Assembly: GCF_024385525.1 (NCBI RefSeq)
Contig: NZ_JANFLU010000001.1
Span: 620,001-684,000 of the forward strand
Length of the DNA stretch: 64,000 nt
Direction: 5' to 3'
Source of the DNA: Arthrobacter sp. zg-Y238
Lineage (GTDB): Bacteria; Actinomycetota; Actinomycetes; Actinomycetales; Micrococcaceae
A model generated the notes under the pieces. That model saw nothing but the letters and a program-made list of their open reading frames with translations, did no database searches and was not told the origin of the DNA. Made by a program: the position numbers and the translations under genes. This document shows positions 23,271-31,490 of the stretch, in pieces. Positions within the stretch are counted from its first letter, which is position 1; the number at the start of each line of letters is the position of its first letter.

Positions 23271-23975
23271 GTGCACATTCCAGAAATACTGACCGAAGAG
23301 CAGACCGACAACGCCGTTACGTTGCTCAAGAACTACTACACCGAACCCGTTTCCAAGGGCCGGGTCCGCACCGGAGCGCGCTTCGACACCTGGGCCGGAG
23401 GTGGAGACGCACCCGAGGTCGTCAACACCATCTCGGCCGACGATATGCTCGCCGCCTCTTTCCTCTCCGTTCGCTTTTCCCCGACGGCGGTCATTGGCGT
23501 CCTTGAGACGCGCCGCGAAGACATCACCGCGCTGCTTGCCCAGATCCCCGTTGATCTGGACCTGACGGCCCTCAGTCGCGACGAAGTGGAGAAAGTCCTC
23601 GGTGAAGATGGCCCGGCCTGGCAGCTCTGGAACATCCTCCGCGGAAAGGATCTCCAGAAGAAGGAAAAATGGGGAATTGGACCAACCAAGGCGAGCAAGC
23701 TGCTGGCCCGGAAGCGTCCCCGACTGATCCCCATCTGGGACTCAGTGGTGAAGAACGAGACGAAGCTGAAGGGCTCCCTGACCCAGTGGGATGACTGGTA
23801 CGAGGCGCTCACCCAGGACAGCGGCGCTCTCGGCCTCCACCTCGATGAAATCCAGCGCCGCGCAGAGCTCCCGCACCCCGTTTCCCGGCTCCGCGTCATG
23901 GACGTGGTTCTGTGGATGCACGGTACCGGCGGCGGCGCGACCCAGCCCCCGACCGGCGAAGACGAAGAAGCTTAG
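23271..23975 (+). CDS. DUF6308-type protein (copy 1)
   Basis: A 234-residue protein of unknown function, matching the DUF6308 pattern in R-T-G-A-R-F-D-T-W-A-G-G-G-D and I-S-A-D-D-M. It shares S-K-L-L-A-R-K-R-P and L-I-P-I-W-D-S with the paralogue at 30795. No transmembrane segment or signal peptide is seen, so it should be cytosolic. The GTG start is weakly supported. The conserved Arg/Lys-rich block K-L-L-A-R-K-R-P-R could bind nucleic acid, but that is a guess. Eighteen of its bases (23381-23398) are repeated at the left window edge. Confidence 0.65.
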   Translation: MHIPEILTEEQTDNAVTLLKNYYTEPVSKGRVRTGARFDTWAGGGDAPEVVNTISADDMLAASFLSVRFSPTAVIGVLETRREDITALLAQIPVDLDLTALSRDEVEKVLGEDGPAWQLWNILRGKDLQKKEKWGIGPTKASKLLARKRPRLIPIWDSVVKNETKLKGSLTQWDDWYEALTQDSGALGLHLDEIQRRAELPHPVSRLRVMDVVLWMHGTGGGATQPPTGEDEEA

Positions 23976-24420
23976 CCCCCTCAATGTGCATCTACTGAGC
24001 AGATAACGGGGTTATCCCCGCCGGATAGCCCCGTTATCTGTACAACCGGCGCGGCTGTGCCCCGGTATCTGTACAACCGGCGCGGCGAAACCCCGTTATC
24101 TGTACAACCGGCGCGGCGAAACCCCGGTATCTGTACAACCGGCGCCGCCCGCACGTTCATAGTGCAGTTGATGCAGCCTCCCGGCTGGCCCGGGGGCATC
24201 TACTGCACTATGAACGCGCCAGAGCCAGTGAATCGCGCAGAACTTCCCACCCAAATGGGGCTTCGCACAGAACGTAAACCCTTGTGAAGTGCCGATGTGA
24301 CCGCAAACACAAATTGCATTAGCGTTGTTCTTCCGTCAACGCAGCCGGAGCCACTCTCCGCACCCATGCTGCGTCATCACTTGCCCCCTTGAGGCGGCAC
24401 GACATGGAAAGGGGTGCCGG
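23976..24420. other. Intergenic region carrying composite repeat element 1
   Basis: There is no supported gene in these 445 bases. Short frames read through the repeats only. Positions 24000-24216 hold the composite repeat element. The remainder leads to the APC permease, with AAAGGGG at 24408-24414 as its ribosome binding site. Confidence 0.6.
24000..24216. repeat. Composite repeat element, copy 1
   Basis: The element has three parts. The head is a palindrome with 18-bp arms (24000-24017 and 24023-24040, one mismatch) around CAGATAACGGGG/CCCCGTTATCTG. The body is four direct repeats of exactly 31 bp starting at 24029, 24060, 24091 and 24122, with core CCCCGKTATCTGTACAA and a variable end. 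The tail is a hairpin with 21-bp arms (24154-24174 and 24196-24216, one mismatch) beginning CGTTCATAGTGCAG. The same architecture recurs at 26458-26678. A 31-bp period is three turns of the DNA helix. Confidence 0.85.
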
Positions 24421-25863
24421 GTGGGAACCTCGCTCCACGAAACCGAGCCCTCGCTCAAGAAAGTCCTCGGCCGGATTGACGTTTTGGCGCTCGGTTTCGG
24501 CGCAATGATCGGTTTCGGCTGGGTGGTGCTCACCGGCGACTGGCTGATCAATGCCGGCACCCTCGGCTCGGTGCTGGCCATGCTGACCGGCGGCGTCATT
24601 ATGGCGGTGGTCGGACTGACGTACGCCGAGCTCTGCGCGGCCATGCCCAAGGCCGGCGGCGAGCACAACTACATCATGCGGGCTATGGGTCCGCGGACCT
24701 CCTTCATCGGATCCTGGGCCATCATCGGCGGCTATGTGACCATCGTGGCATTCGAAGCCGTGGCCCTGCCCCGCACCGTGCAGTACATCTTCCCGGACCT
24801 CAGCCAGATTCACCTGTGGACCGTGGCGGGCTTCGACGTGCACCTGACCTGGGCGCTGGTAGGTGCGGTTGCCGCCGTCGTAATCACCTGGATCAACATC
24901 CGCGGCGTGAAGGAAGCGGGCGTGGTGCAGACCTTCGTGGTGCTTTTCCTGCTGGCCATCGGGCTGGTGATGATCGCCGGGTCCTTCGCCGGAGGGTCCG
25001 TGGCCAACATGGAGCCGTGGATCAACAACGGCATGACCGGGTTCTTCGCGGTCCTGGTGGTGGTGCCCTTCCTGTTCATCGGCTTCGACGTGATTCCGCA
25101 GTCCGCCGAGGAAGTGAACATCCCCGCCAAGCAGATCGGCAAGCTCGTAGTTGTCTCCGTGGTGCTGGCAACCATCTGGTACCTCATGGTGGTGCTGACC
25201 ACTTCGTCGGCTATGTCTGCCGGAGACCTGGCGCAGACGGACATAGCGACGGCGGACGCCGTCGGGGCCATGTTCGGCTCGGACATCATGGCCAAGATCC
25301 TGATTGCCGGCGGCATCGCAGGCATCCTCACGTCGTGGAACTCGCTGTTGATGGGCGCTTCCCGGCTGATGTATTCCCTGGCCCGTTCCGGCATGCTCCC
25401 GGCCTGGTTCGGCCGCCTGCATCCGAAGTATCACACCCCGCACAACGCCCTGCTGTTCATCGGGGCACTGAGTTTCCTTGCCCCGTTCGGCGGCGCGGAG
25501 ATGCTCGGCTGGCTGGTGGACTCCGGGGCGCCCAGCATCGTGCTGGCCTACACCCTGGTAGCGATTTCGTTCCTCATCCTGCGCCGCCGCGAACCGGCAA
25601 TGGACCGTCCGCTGCGGATCGGCGGGCGCGGCAACGGCGGCATCGCCATCGGTATTGCCGCCGCCGTCTTCGGCCTGGCCCTGTTCAGCCTCTACATGCC
25701 GGGCATGCCTGCGGCGTTGGGCGTCGAGCCGTGGGTACTGTTCGCCGCCTGGTGGGTGGTCGGTCTGGTCTTCTTCTTCCGGGTGCCGACCGGCATCAAG
25801 GCGGGGCCCGACGCCGAGGAGCACCTCCTTGCCGGTCTTCGGTCCCGCGTGCGGCAGGGCTGA
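24421..25863 (+). CDS. APC-superfamily amino acid permease
   Basis: A 480-residue membrane protein with about 12 transmembrane helices. The first helix carries the family's substrate-binding region (L-G-F-G-A-M-I-G-F-G-W), and M-P-K-A-G-G-E-H-N-Y follows the second. GTG 24421 is chosen because AAAGGGG lies 6 bases upstream and the longer in-frame N-terminus runs into non-conserved Arg/Cys-rich sequence. It imports an amino acid or amine, probably by proton symport; the substrate is not readable. Composite repeat elements lie on both sides of this gene and its small downstream neighbour. Confidence 0.83.
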   Translation: MGTSLHETEPSLKKVLGRIDVLALGFGAMIGFGWVVLTGDWLINAGTLGSVLAMLTGGVIMAVVGLTYAELCAAMPKAGGEHNYIMRAMGPRTSFIGSWAIIGGYVTIVAFEAVALPRTVQYIFPDLSQIHLWTVAGFDVHLTWALVGAVAAVVITWINIRGVKEAGVVQTFVVLFLLAIGLVMIAGSFAGGSVANMEPWINNGMTGFFAVLVVVPFLFIGFDVIPQSAEEVNIPAKQIGKLVVVSVVLATIWYLMVVLTTSSAMSAGDLAQTDIATADAVGAMFGSDIMAKILIAGGIAGILTSWNSLLMGASRLMYSLARSGMLPAWFGRLHPKYHTPHNALLFIGALSFLAPFGGAEMLGWLVDSGAPSIVLAYTLVAISFLILRRREPAMDRPLRIGGRGNGGIAIGIAAAVFGLALFSLYMPGMPAALGVEPWVLFAAWWVVGLVFFFRVPTGIKAGPDAEEHLLAGLRSRVRQG

Positions 25864-25936
25864 TTTGGGCGGGCCGTTTTCTTTGCCGGCGGAAGTCCGG
25901 ACCGAATAACTTAACGCCGACAATGATGGGGGACGA

Positions 25937-26389
25937 ATGACACTGAACAGGATGCTCACCGACGAGGAAGTCTTCGCAGAGCACCGGAGGCTCCTGGCCC
26001 GGGGCGAGAAGCGATTCCTTCATCGGACGGAGTTTGGCAATCTCCACAGCTACGCCCCGGACGAACTCGGGTTCCGGCCGGACGGTGCTCCGCCGTCGGA
26101 CCACCCCAATTCCTGGGTGGTGGGGGTGCTCCTCCTCATCCTGTATTTGGTGTTCATTCTCTTTTTCGCCGGGGTTGGCCTTTTCCCGTCAGACGACTGG
26201 GTCTTGAGAGTGACCGCACTGATTCTCGTGGCGGTGATGCTCGGTTGTTCCTTCCGGCTTGTTGCGGCGACCCGAAGGGAATACCGGGCTGCGAGGGTGC
26301 GGAAGCAGCTAGGGCTTCCGCGGCCCGGCCGCCAGGGTGCGGTAGCCCTGCCGGACGTTGTCGATGGGCGTTTCGGTTTCCGGCGCTGA
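25937..26389 (+). CDS. Small two-helix membrane protein of unknown function
   Basis: A 150-residue protein with a charged N-terminal domain (about 1-55), two transmembrane helices (about 58-80 and 88-108) and a basic C-terminal tail. GGGGGACGA precedes the ATG. It lies 73 bases after the APC permease on the same strand and may be co-transcribed. No family was recognised. The location between two copies of the composite repeat is notable. Confidence 0.6.
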   Translation: MTLNRMLTDEEVFAEHRRLLARGEKRFLHRTEFGNLHSYAPDELGFRPDGAPPSDHPNSWVVGVLLLILYLVFILFFAGVGLFPSDDWVLRVTALILVAVMLGCSFRLVAATRREYRAARVRKQLGLPRPGRQGAVALPDVVDGRFGFRR

Positions 26390-26457
26390 CCGGACGTCGC
26401 CCGCTGCACAGGGATCCTCGTCGCGGAGGGGGCTGGGGCTGTTTCCGAAAATCCGGT

Positions 26458-26678
26458 GTACAGATAACGGGCCTATGCCGGCCGAATAACCCCGTTATCT
26501 GTACAACCGACCCCGGTAAGCCCCGTTATCTGTACAACCGGCGCCGCTAAGCCCCGTTATCTGTACACCGGACGAGGGTAAGCCCCGTTATCTGTACAAC
26601 CGACGCCGCCCGCACGTTCATAGTGCAAGTAGATGCTGCCTCTGGACCGGCCAGAGGACATCAACGGCACTATGAATG
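26458..26678. repeat. Composite repeat element, copy 2
   Basis: This has the same parts and orientation as the element at 24000. The head is an inverted repeat (14-bp arms, 26458-26471 and 26491-26504). The body is four direct repeats with a 31-bp period (CCCCG at 26490, 26521, 26552 and 26583). The tail is a hairpin (CGTTCATAGTGC at 26615-26626 with GCACTATGAATG at 26667-26678) enclosing a second perfect hairpin (CCTCTGG/CCAGAGG). The body-tail junction is nearly identical to copy 1, while variable parts and loops differ. Confidence 0.85.
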
Positions 26679-26909
26679 CGTCCGGCCGCTGAAGCCCCGG
26701 CAGAACGTCAAGCCCACCCGGCCCGGCCCGCCCCGGCTCACCCCGCCCCCGGCTCACCCCGCGGCCCGCCCCGCCCCAAGCCCACCCGTCACCCCGCGGC
26801 CCGCCGCACCCCGCCCGTTGCAAAAACATCACGTTAAGCCGGGTTTGGGGCTCCTCGGGGCGCTTTGTGAAGCAGGTAACGGTAAGGTTGCTTGGTAGTT
26901 TTCGCCCGG

Positions 26910-27026
26910 ACACCAACCCCGGACACCAACCCCGGACACCAACCCCGGACACCAACCCCGGACACCAACCCCGGACACCAACCCCGGACACCAACCCCGG
27001 ACACCAACCCCGGACACCAACCCCGG
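26910..27026. repeat. 13-bp tandem repeat, nine perfect copies
   Basis: The unit ACACCAACCCCGG is repeated nine times without error, followed by a degenerate tenth copy (27027-27040). It ends 72 bases before the first gene of the osmoprotectant ABC operon. The unit length is not a multiple of three and no start signal precedes it, so it is probably not coding. Such tracts can change copy number by slippage. Confidence 0.9.
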
Positions 27027-27042
27027 ACACCAAACGCCGGGC

Positions 27043-27070
27043 GGCGACAAGAAACAGGCGACAAGAAACA
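27043..27070. repeat. 14-bp direct repeat, two copies
   Basis: GGCGACAAGAAACA occurs at 27043-27056 and again immediately at 27057-27070, just upstream of the ribosome binding site of the gene at 27099. Confidence 0.75.
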
Positions 27071-27098
27071 TACGCAACCAAAGTGAAGAGGTCTTGAT

Positions 27099-27740
27099 GT
27101 GTGGGAATTCGTGGCGGACCGGTATCAACAGATCCTGTTCGCCGGATGGCAGCACTTCAGCCTAGTTATCCAGTGCCTGATCCTCGCCACGGTCATTGCC
27201 GTGGTCATTGCGGCCCTCGTTTACCGCAATAAGACCCTCAGCGGAGTGGCCAACGGCGTCTCCGCGGTAGGCCTCACGCTGCCGTCCTTCGCCCTGATCG
27301 GCCTGCTGATCGCGCCCTTCGGGTTCGGCGCCGTGCCGGCCGTGATCGTCGTGGCGTTCTATGCCACCCTGCCCATCCTGCGCAACGCGGTGGTGGGCCT
27401 GGCCGGGATTTCCCCGACCGTCGTCGAATCCGCCCGCGGTGTCGGCATGAGCCGGCTGCGCACACTGCTGCGCATCGAACTGCCGCTGGCCTGGCCTGTC
27501 ATCCTCGCCGGCGTGCGGGTGTCCGCCCAGATGGTTATGGGTATTGCCGCCATCGCGGCCTACGCCCTCGGCCCGGGACTGGGCGGCTTCATCTTCACCG
27601 GACTCTCCCGCCTGGGCGGTGCCAACTCCCTCGAATCCGTGGTGGTCGGCGTCGTCGGCGTCATCCTGCTGGCCCTGATCCTTGACCTTCTCCTGGTCGG
27701 CCTCGGCCGGCTCACAACCCCGCGAGGTATCCGTGTCTGA
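27099..27740 (+). CDS. Osmoprotectant ABC transporter permease (OpuCB/ProW-like)
   Basis: A 213-residue permease with about five or six transmembrane helices and the conserved cytosolic loop near A-R-G-V-G-M-S (residues 110-116). GTG 27099 has GAAGAGG 8 bases upstream. It is the first gene of four that together make a complete glycine-betaine/choline/proline-type uptake system: two permeases, a CBS-containing ATPase and a lipoprotein. Its upstream DNA carries the 13-bp tandem repeat. Osmotic control is usual for the family but cannot be read here. Confidence 0.85.
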   Translation: MWEFVADRYQQILFAGWQHFSLVIQCLILATVIAVVIAALVYRNKTLSGVANGVSAVGLTLPSFALIGLLIAPFGFGAVPAVIVVAFYATLPILRNAVVGLAGISPTVVESARGVGMSRLRTLLRIELPLAWPVILAGVRVSAQMVMGIAAIAAYALGPGLGGFIFTGLSRLGGANSLESVVVGVVGVILLALILDLLLVGLGRLTTPRGIRV

Positions 27741-30794: not shown

Positions 30795-31490
30795 GTGGAC
30801 CCCGTGGACCTTCCAGCCATCCTCGACGCCGGCCACGTTGACGACGCCGCCGGCCTGCTGCGCCGCTACTACACGCAGAAACTGACCTCCGGGCATGTGC
30901 GGACCGGGGCGAGGTTCGACACCTGGGCCGGCGGGGGAGACTCCCCGGGGGCCGCCGACCGGATCACCGCCGACGACCTGGTTGCACTGGCCCTGCTGGG
31001 CGAGGAAATCAAGGGACCGGCGGTGGTGGGACTGCTCGAGACCAAGGCACCGGAGATCGGCGAGCTGCTGGAACTGATTCCGGTGAGCCTGGAGCTGGCG
31101 GACGTTACCGGCGTCGAATACGTCCATGTCCTCGGCAAGGACAGCCCGGCGTGGCTGCTCTGGGAGATTTTCCGCGGCTACCGGGGCGGGCAGTGGAAGA
31201 TGGGCCCCACGAAAACCAGCAAGCTGCTGGCCCGCAAACGGCCGAAACTGATTCCGATCTGGGATTCAATGGTGGCCCGCAGCATCGGAGCGGGGACCTC
31301 CCTCACGCAGTGGGAGGAATGGCATGCGCTGCTGACCGCCAATGACCGGGAACTGGTCCGCCTCCTGGACGAAGTCCAGGACCGGGCTGCGCTGCCGGTG
31401 CGGGTGTCAGCCCTGCGGGCCATGGACGTGGTGCTGTGGATGGACGCCAAGCAGCGCGGTTTCCGGGCCGCGCCGGGCGACGACGACTGA
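30795..31490 (+). CDS. DUF6308-type protein (copy 2)
   Basis: A 231-residue paralogue of the protein at 23271, sharing R-T-G-A-R-F-D-T-W-A-G-G-G-D, T-A-D-D-L, S-K-L-L-A-R-K-R-P and L-I-P-I-W-D-S. No membrane segment is visible. The GTG start lies 1 base after the osmoprotectant lipoprotein stop, so it is probably the fifth gene of that operon; a second GTG at 30804 is equally possible. Function is unknown. Pairing with an uptake operon here and a membrane-protein operon at the other copy gives no consistent hint. Confidence 0.65.
   Translation: MDPVDLPAILDAGHVDDAAGLLRRYYTQKLTSGHVRTGARFDTWAGGGDSPGAADRITADDLVALALLGEEIKGPAVVGLLETKAPEIGELLELIPVSLELADVTGVEYVHVLGKDSPAWLLWEIFRGYRGGQWKMGPTKTSKLLARKRPKLIPIWDSMVARSIGAGTSLTQWEEWHALLTANDRELVRLLDEVQDRAALPVRVSALRAMDVVLWMDAKQRGFRAAPGDDD

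Follow-up and report, generated by a model that had tools for sequence, protein, structure and literature searches.

REP-like arrays of phased palindromic sites in Arthrobacter and their probable partner, an AbiEi/DUF559-type protein

Introduction

The genes of RAYT transposases are flanked by their own repetitive extragenic palindromic (REP) sequences. Together, REP/REPIN sequences and RAYTs form a system in which short dispersed palindromes are linked to a solitary gene, as described in the available parts of PMC3116915, PMC2817692, PMC8266576 and PMC3733652. Paired inverted sites of another kind are known from AbiE type IV toxin-antitoxin systems: according to the available part of PMC7319586, AbiEi binds two 23-bp inverted repeats lying 3 bp apart, Rv2827c binds pairs lying 13 bp apart, which is one helical turn more, and AbiEi proteins autoregulate via inverted repeats in their own promoter. 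Here we describe two composite repeats in a 64,000-nucleotide stretch of Arthrobacter sp. zg-Y238 (the window, meaning this whole stretch; unprefixed coordinates are window positions), together with their relatives in other genomes. Judging from sequence comparisons, the window repeats are probably REP-like arrays of recognition sites for an AbiEi/DUF559-type protein that is encoded outside the window, beside maf.

The layout is already known from REP/RAYT, but the protein, the site size and the phased arrays differ. As in REP/RAYT, palindromes are dispersed between genes within one genome (in the genus, in genome G047 and in Tsukamurella), and repeats flank the associated gene. Unlike in REP/RAYT, the partner is AbiEi-like with a restriction-fold-like domain and not an HUH Y1 transposase, the palindromes measure about 60 bp as against 20-40 bp (available part of PMC3733652), copies number in the tens where REPs usually exceed 100 (available part of PMC2817692), direct arrays are helically phased, and the main core (A-type, below), inspected by eye, lacks the GTAG/CGTC foot tag (tag as given in the available part of PMC3733652).

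With AbiE the locus shares an AbiEi-like domain and inverted sites, about 22 bp each, with two gap lengths roughly one helical turn apart (33 and 43 bp start to start here, against gaps of 3 and 13 bp in the available part of PMC7319586). It departs from AbiE in its C-terminal restriction-like domain, in sites that lie also downstream and dispersed, and in the lack of an annotated AbiEii toxin gene next to the gene at the three loci whose neighbours carry annotation (one neighbour being a hypothetical protein). DUF559 and MTES_1575 restriction-fold proteins resemble the C-terminus, although most members score below the curated cut-offs.

A literature search that left most subscription journals outside its reach found no paper linking DUF559 to AbiEi and none on AbiEi with repetitive extragenic palindromic sequences, an absence that counts as weak evidence. 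For DUF559 with palindromic repeats it gave only papers that are off-topic by title and opening of the abstract, and the abstracts and titles among the matches listed held none joining REP sequences or RAYT to restriction endonuclease-like proteins. For intergenic palindromic repeats of Micrococcaceae it yielded a review only, and the available part of RepRanger (PMC12306157) has a table row for Arthrobacter livingstonensis.

Composite repeats in the window and their family

The two composites occupy 23995-24215 and 26456-26677, and each is made of one inverted head site, four direct sites in 31-bp steps and a palindrome:

23995..24011, minus strand: copy 1 head site, the inverted dyad arm, a GAGCAG variant of the A-type core with 3 mismatches to the 17-base core
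24029..24138, plus strand: copy 1, four A-type direct sites (24029, 24060, 24091, 24122; 31-bp spacing)
24155..24215, unstranded: copy 1 tail, a B-type palindrome with 20-bp arms, 41 bp start to start
26456..26472, minus strand: copy 2 head site, the inverted dyad arm
26490..26599, plus strand: copy 2, four A-type direct sites (26490, 26521, 26552, 26583; 31-bp spacing)
26616..26677, unstranded: copy 2 tail, a B-type palindrome with one extra left-arm base (left arm by eye) and a small inner hairpin

Positions, inverted head, four direct cores in exact 31-bp steps and hairpin are, in both copies, as the original prediction from this DNA had claimed; in copy 1 the head site stands 33 bp, start to start, from the next site. 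At up to three mismatches the core matches the window ten times, against a shuffle mean of 0.09 and a largest shuffle value of 1. The number of repeats, which had been given as exactly four, is not fixed: it varies at the same locus in G009, G019 and G020 (genomes and loci are denoted by G and L numbers). The order of sites there reads - - - - + and - - - + in G009, which belongs to the same species, - - + at one copy in G019, and - - + at both in G020. The window array had no match in the plasmid collection.

Further intergenic copies in related genomes, for which the original prediction had suggested a search, were found with the core in the genus. The window's own genome has the core at ten more places when clusters are counted and scattered three-mismatch hits are not, and the exact 14-base core is present in 11 of 29 genus genomes, with reversed-control hits at zero in all 29. 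We scanned spacing at 49 loci (L014-L062) picked for core matches, which are not all independent because orthologues are among them. Among 71 facing neighbours (GTACAG ends pointing outward), the distance is 33 bp in 68 and 43 bp in 3. Direct neighbours are 41 or 42 bp apart in 74 of 105 cases and 31 bp apart in 25, the remaining six spacings being 29, 30, 40 (twice), 52 and 71 bp; the 31-bp period, exact in both window copies, is therefore a minority spacing in the family.

A search for the exact dyad in 395 genomes of the bacterial family, in which the gap could vary from 2 to 32 bases, gave matches in 9, all from this genus, and the gap was 19 bases (33 bp start to start) in every case among the matches listed. 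In the named collection the dyad pattern occurs in 10 stretches, all Arthrobacter records. A consensus of 10 dyads from G022 gives half-sites of about 22 bp.

Arrays at the maf locus

The same geometry recurs with other core sequences downstream of maf. We read 560 bases there in all 29 genomes and set the arms in register manually at the GTACAG-equivalent; every locus was then searched for its own arm, allowing 4 mismatches at most. The spacing of facing pairs is 33 bp in 30 of 34 cases, 43 bp in 3 and 73 bp in 1; direct pairs are spaced by 41/42 bp in 46 of 63, by 31/32 bp in 11 and by 51/52 bp in 3. Counted by locus, at least one 33-bp facing pair is found in 19/29 and a 43-bp pair in 3/29, and 22 of the 29 genomes have a facing pair of one of these two geometries although their core sequences differ. 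Nine different arm sequences yield the 33-bp spacing; we call them different rather than wholly unrelated because most share CAG. Twenty block shuffles gave 0.05 facing pairs per 29-locus set, none of them at 33 bp.

That spacing by whole helical turns fits protein-bound arrays, as the original prediction had proposed, gains support from a geometry that is kept while the core changes and from a candidate binding protein, whose gene, coding for about 315 residues, adjoins the maf-locus array. Half-sites of about 22 bp and gaps differing by 10 bp fit recognition of the AbiEi class, and we therefore read the arrays as predicted sites of this protein.

The maf-locus protein

A match to the protein exists somewhere in each of the 29 genus genomes, and its own genome holds one match at E 1e-20 or better. 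At maf itself G012 and G026 have gene fragments only; in G005 the gene lies about 2.5 kb away from maf, and in G001 it has the opposite orientation. Palindromic sites persist beside the fragmentary gene at L190 (G012) and L191 (G026).

All 25 aligned members match the PADLOC AbiEi model PDLC02249 at E 0.001, and Pfam at E 0.01 places DUF559 in 15 and MTES_1575 in 10 of the 25, C-terminally. Eight residues are invariant in the 25 proteins (E207, D241, E252, H257, H258, D267, R270 and D271), presumably in keeping with a Vsr/DUF559-like restriction fold. Three of them, E207, D241 and E252, are candidates for the catalytic residues of a PD-(D/E)XK nuclease. NCBIfam has no family for the protein, and scans with Pfam, NCBIfam and PADLOC gave no transposase family for the flanked gene. 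A PDB profile search returned four weak matches, the endonuclease-like 3hrl at E 0.18 and glucokinases at E 0.13-0.29, which we took as chance. A scan of viral contigs for relatives gave 30 pattern-matching stretches, none confirmed.

A DnaA-box sequence, TGTGGATAA, was noticed before the start codon of homologues of this gene. In the loci read (L022, L046, L162-L196 and L132-L161) an exact copy is present at 10 of the 39 loci from the genus and at 10 of the 30 from other genera, whereas the control windows have it in 0 of 1021 and 1 of 659 cases; at one mismatch the counts are 24/39 and 18/30, against 7 and 9 controls. It lies mostly 43-50 bp before the start, sometimes 54-66 bp, and in two cases at 116 and 139 bp. 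Such a box upstream hints at control tied to replication.

Co-variation of gene and array, and dispersal of own-type sites

We compared array similarity with protein and with Maf identity over 300 pairs from 25 genomes, using partial Spearman correlation with 2000 permutations. Array similarity goes with the protein once Maf is removed (0.40, a value that 1 of 2000 permutations reached); with the protein removed, the relation to Maf is weak (0.10, reached in 365 of 2000). The G021 interval was at first only 49 bp, as the gene stop falls inside the palindrome, and with 75 bp the values were 0.40 (0/2000) for protein and 0.10 (357/2000) for Maf. Leaving G021 out gave 0.34 (0/2000) and 0.17 (135/2000), and leaving out G021, G009 and G020, which removes near-duplicates, gave 0.29 (4/2000) and 0.17 (98/2000). 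The protein effect holds, and is smaller without the extreme case G021. Single pairs illustrate it: where Maf DNA is 94-97% identical and proteins are 52-65% identical, array scores are low (12-28), and the pair G000/G022 reaches 123 with Maf 83% and proteins 68% identical.

Genomes carrying an A-type gene hold the largest numbers of A-type cores: 40 in G000, 35 in G009, 32 in G022, 13 in G019, 11 in G020 and 10 in G016. Using a pattern for three array types, we obtained 38 matches in G005, 10 in G012, 22 in G007, 27 in G008, 27 in G018 and 9 in G017, with at most two in each of the other 23 genomes and up to 3 in reversed controls. The dispersed core in each of these six is that of its own array.

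Among the matches listed, none of the exact A-type cores of G009 and G022 falls in roughly the first 1 Mb of the contig, which may be a position bias.

Homologues and palindromes in other genera

Outside the genus, one genome was searched from each of 31 genera of the bacterial family, and 25 of them have homologues, some partial, with up to 12 matches per genome. At 30 homologous loci, palindromes scoring 12 or more were found upstream in 18 and downstream in 13, against 8 of 208 control windows. Both flanks are alike above the 99th percentile of 870 mismatched pairs at 17 of the 30 loci, though the top matched pair scores no higher than the top mismatched one. Of 6 homologues in records from the named plasmid collection, 5 have palindromes of related sequence on their two sides, the two Tsukamurella genes described below among them.

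Three flanking palindromes proved to be dispersed through the genome, two of them in Tsukamurella and one in G047. The latter occurs as 31 scattered dyads, each with a spacing of exactly 32 bp, and as one single arm; in the 23 copies read, similarity is limited to about 59 bp, and 11 other genomes have none. Two homologues in Tsukamurella, a member of another order, are annotated as DUF559 and each sits between its own palindromes, which recur at 20 places in 8 records and at 11 places in 9 records; the 20 places are maybe about 10 palindromes, because a palindromic query may count on both strands. All matches are from T. tyrosinosolvens, with no other organism among 72,556 records at E 0.01, and the records inspected are all of strain NCTC13231. 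Four of the 17 best places among the matches listed overlap an annotated gene. Seven copies, chosen from places without an overlapping gene, were inspected: five lie between converging genes, two between codirectional genes and none between diverging genes, and all seven have a stop codon no more than about 12 bp away.

Another gene of G047, short-chain dehydrogenase-like by eye, likewise stands between copies of that genome's palindrome (L224 1798-2884).

These positions bear on what the sites might be for. If they were only autoregulatory operators of an AbiEi-like repressor, the scattered copies being a regulon or a titration sponge, one would expect the upstream palindromes seen at 18 of the 30 homologues, where binding is predicted only, and the autoregulation via promoter inverted repeats described for AbiEi proteins (available part of PMC7319586) would be a precedent. 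The 13 downstream palindromes speak against this account, as does the setting of the seven Tsukamurella copies, a poor place for repressor sites, and we regard it as unlikely. Another possibility is that ordinary REP/BIME repeats are moved by a RAYT (HUH tyrosine) transposase encoded elsewhere and that the DUF559-type gene has no part in this and just occupies a permissive intergenic position. Palindromic and dispersed repeats with a gene flanked by copies are indeed the same layout; however, the type of array is better matched by the AbiEi-like protein next to it than by Maf, many other-genus homologues, including both in Tsukamurella, sit between their own palindromes, and the A core, by eye, has no foot tag. 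Further, the protein matches AbiEi/DUF559-type models and the scans gave no transposase family, in searches that did not include a RAYT-directed search of the genomes. Such an origin therefore seems very improbable to us.

The tail palindromes

The original prediction had treated head, body and tail as a single element. The tail instead belongs to a palindrome family distinct from the body and present at other places too, with 20-bp arms usually 40-41 bp start to start; the body is an A-type array. Most B-type matches are in G021 and G028, and many other genomes show only single three-mismatch hits. In G021, another species, the B-type palindrome stands on both sides of the maf-locus gene. Since the tail belongs to this family, the window holds at least two site types side by side. 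At the permease locus of G021 the same B-type palindromes lie beside variant arrays, and by eye a third palindrome type is present at this locus in G019 and G021. In the B-type arm GTAG is internal and not at the foot of the palindrome, also by eye.

It had further been claimed that the tail stems are kept. Palindromes are present in both copies, but the stem of copy 2 is not fully kept because one arm has an extra base, which G009 lacks. Rfam gave nothing above its gathering score on 23500-27200, with two miRNA-family matches far below it, and we read the tail stems here as double-stranded inverted sites of fixed length and not as RNA structure.

The junction CGCCCGCACGTTCA is common to both window copies and G021, and because it is shared the composite was probably copied as a block. 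Block copying would also suit an account in which these are neutral tandem repeats, or hairpins at terminators or mRNA ends, multiplied by slippage and recombination, their spacing inherited and no dedicated protein involved. Unit numbers differing by whole units between relatives and the closeness of the inspected Tsukamurella copies to stop codons agree with it. Against it, the same distances recur with clearly different cores, arrays co-vary with the neighbouring protein, and other genera have matching palindromes on both flanks of the gene; we find it quite improbable.

Discussion

We favour recognition of the arrays by the maf-locus protein, and suggest how this might work. A solitary AbiEi-like protein with a DUF559/Vsr-like restriction-fold C-terminus, present as a single close copy beside maf, would recognise predicted sites about 22 bp long. 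A pair of its subunits would sit on two inverted sites a fixed distance apart, and additional direct sites, placed whole helical turns away, would let further subunits line up on the same face of the DNA. Gene and palindromes would be exchanged as one unit, scattering palindromes of about 60 bp between genes in a REP/RAYT-like layout. In the window, sites for the resident protein (A-type) would then stand next to palindromes that belong to another allele (B-type). For the spread of the palindromes, cleavage by the restriction-fold domain followed by repair is a natural guess.

Several observations weigh against this interpretation. The guaB locus is about 60 bp shorter in G020, and this empty-site comparison shows no clean target-site duplication. 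Between one and five A-type cores occur in G018, G021, G023, G024 and G027, and G027, with an arm of the G017 type, has only 1 match for it; dispersal of own-type sites is neither exclusive nor universal. Back-to-back pairs are less regular than the others, at 38 bp in 11 of 20 cases and otherwise at 10, 36, 48 (twice), 50, 58 (twice), 59 and 90 bp, and the 31- and 41-bp spacings may come partly from the descent of two repeat units. At maf, the arms were registered by hand and most share CAG, and 7 of 29 loci have no 33- or 43-bp pair (G021, G026, G001, G014, G010, G013 and G006), with the interval shortened for G021 and G026 and the G021 palindrome plainly visible in the full read. The G024 and G007 proteins are only 49% identical, yet their array score is 68. 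The DUF559 match is weak, 4 of 21 members with scores passing the curated cut-off, and that of MTES_1575 is passed by 0 of 21. Finally, the strict acidic motif is present in 8 of 24 other-genus homologues (6 of the 30 loci having been dropped as short or containing a stop), and nuclease activity is uncertain because many have Q in place of E252.

More tentatively, Actinomycetes may have REP-like mobile modules without an HUH transposase, in which an AbiEi/restriction-fold protein recognises and spreads its own palindrome and is swapped together with its sites at a fixed locus, older palindromes such as the window tails recording past alleles. This we hold to be possible rather than probable. 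If the protein does spread its sites, it would be a second and unrelated solution to the handling of REPs by RAYTs, and the matched sets of protein alleles and sites would lend themselves naturally to reading a specificity code. Pfam gives DUF559 no role, and a link to gene-specific palindromes and phased arrays would be a concrete, testable function.

Neighbouring genes and other repeats

The genes around the window composites are:

23271..23975, plus strand: DUF6308 gene (PF19827, E 2e-56), ending about 20 bp before copy 1
24421..25863, plus strand: amino-acid permease gene between the copies (PF13520, E 5.7e-41); its reading frame starts at 24325 in the list of open reading frames
25937..26389, plus strand: open reading frame of 150 amino acids between the copies, with weak Pfam matches only, below cut-off

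The two copies do bracket the permease gene and the 150-residue frame, as had been pointed out, and this is one setting among several. Other arrays adjoin unrelated genes, for which reason we dropped a link to DUF6308 or the permease; G012, G010 and G024 have the permease without such arrays.

Another repeat family, around GTGGGATCC / TCCCACG stretches, was seen by eye near several arrays, at L014 4460-4700, at L025 1440-1900 and near 18600 in L209. Within the window, a second open reading frame at 30795-31490 resembles, by eye, the DUF6308 gene at 23271-23975, and a 13-bp tandem repeat, CCGGACACCAACC, runs at 26905-27000 and beyond, just before an open reading frame at 27099 that is a permease by eye.

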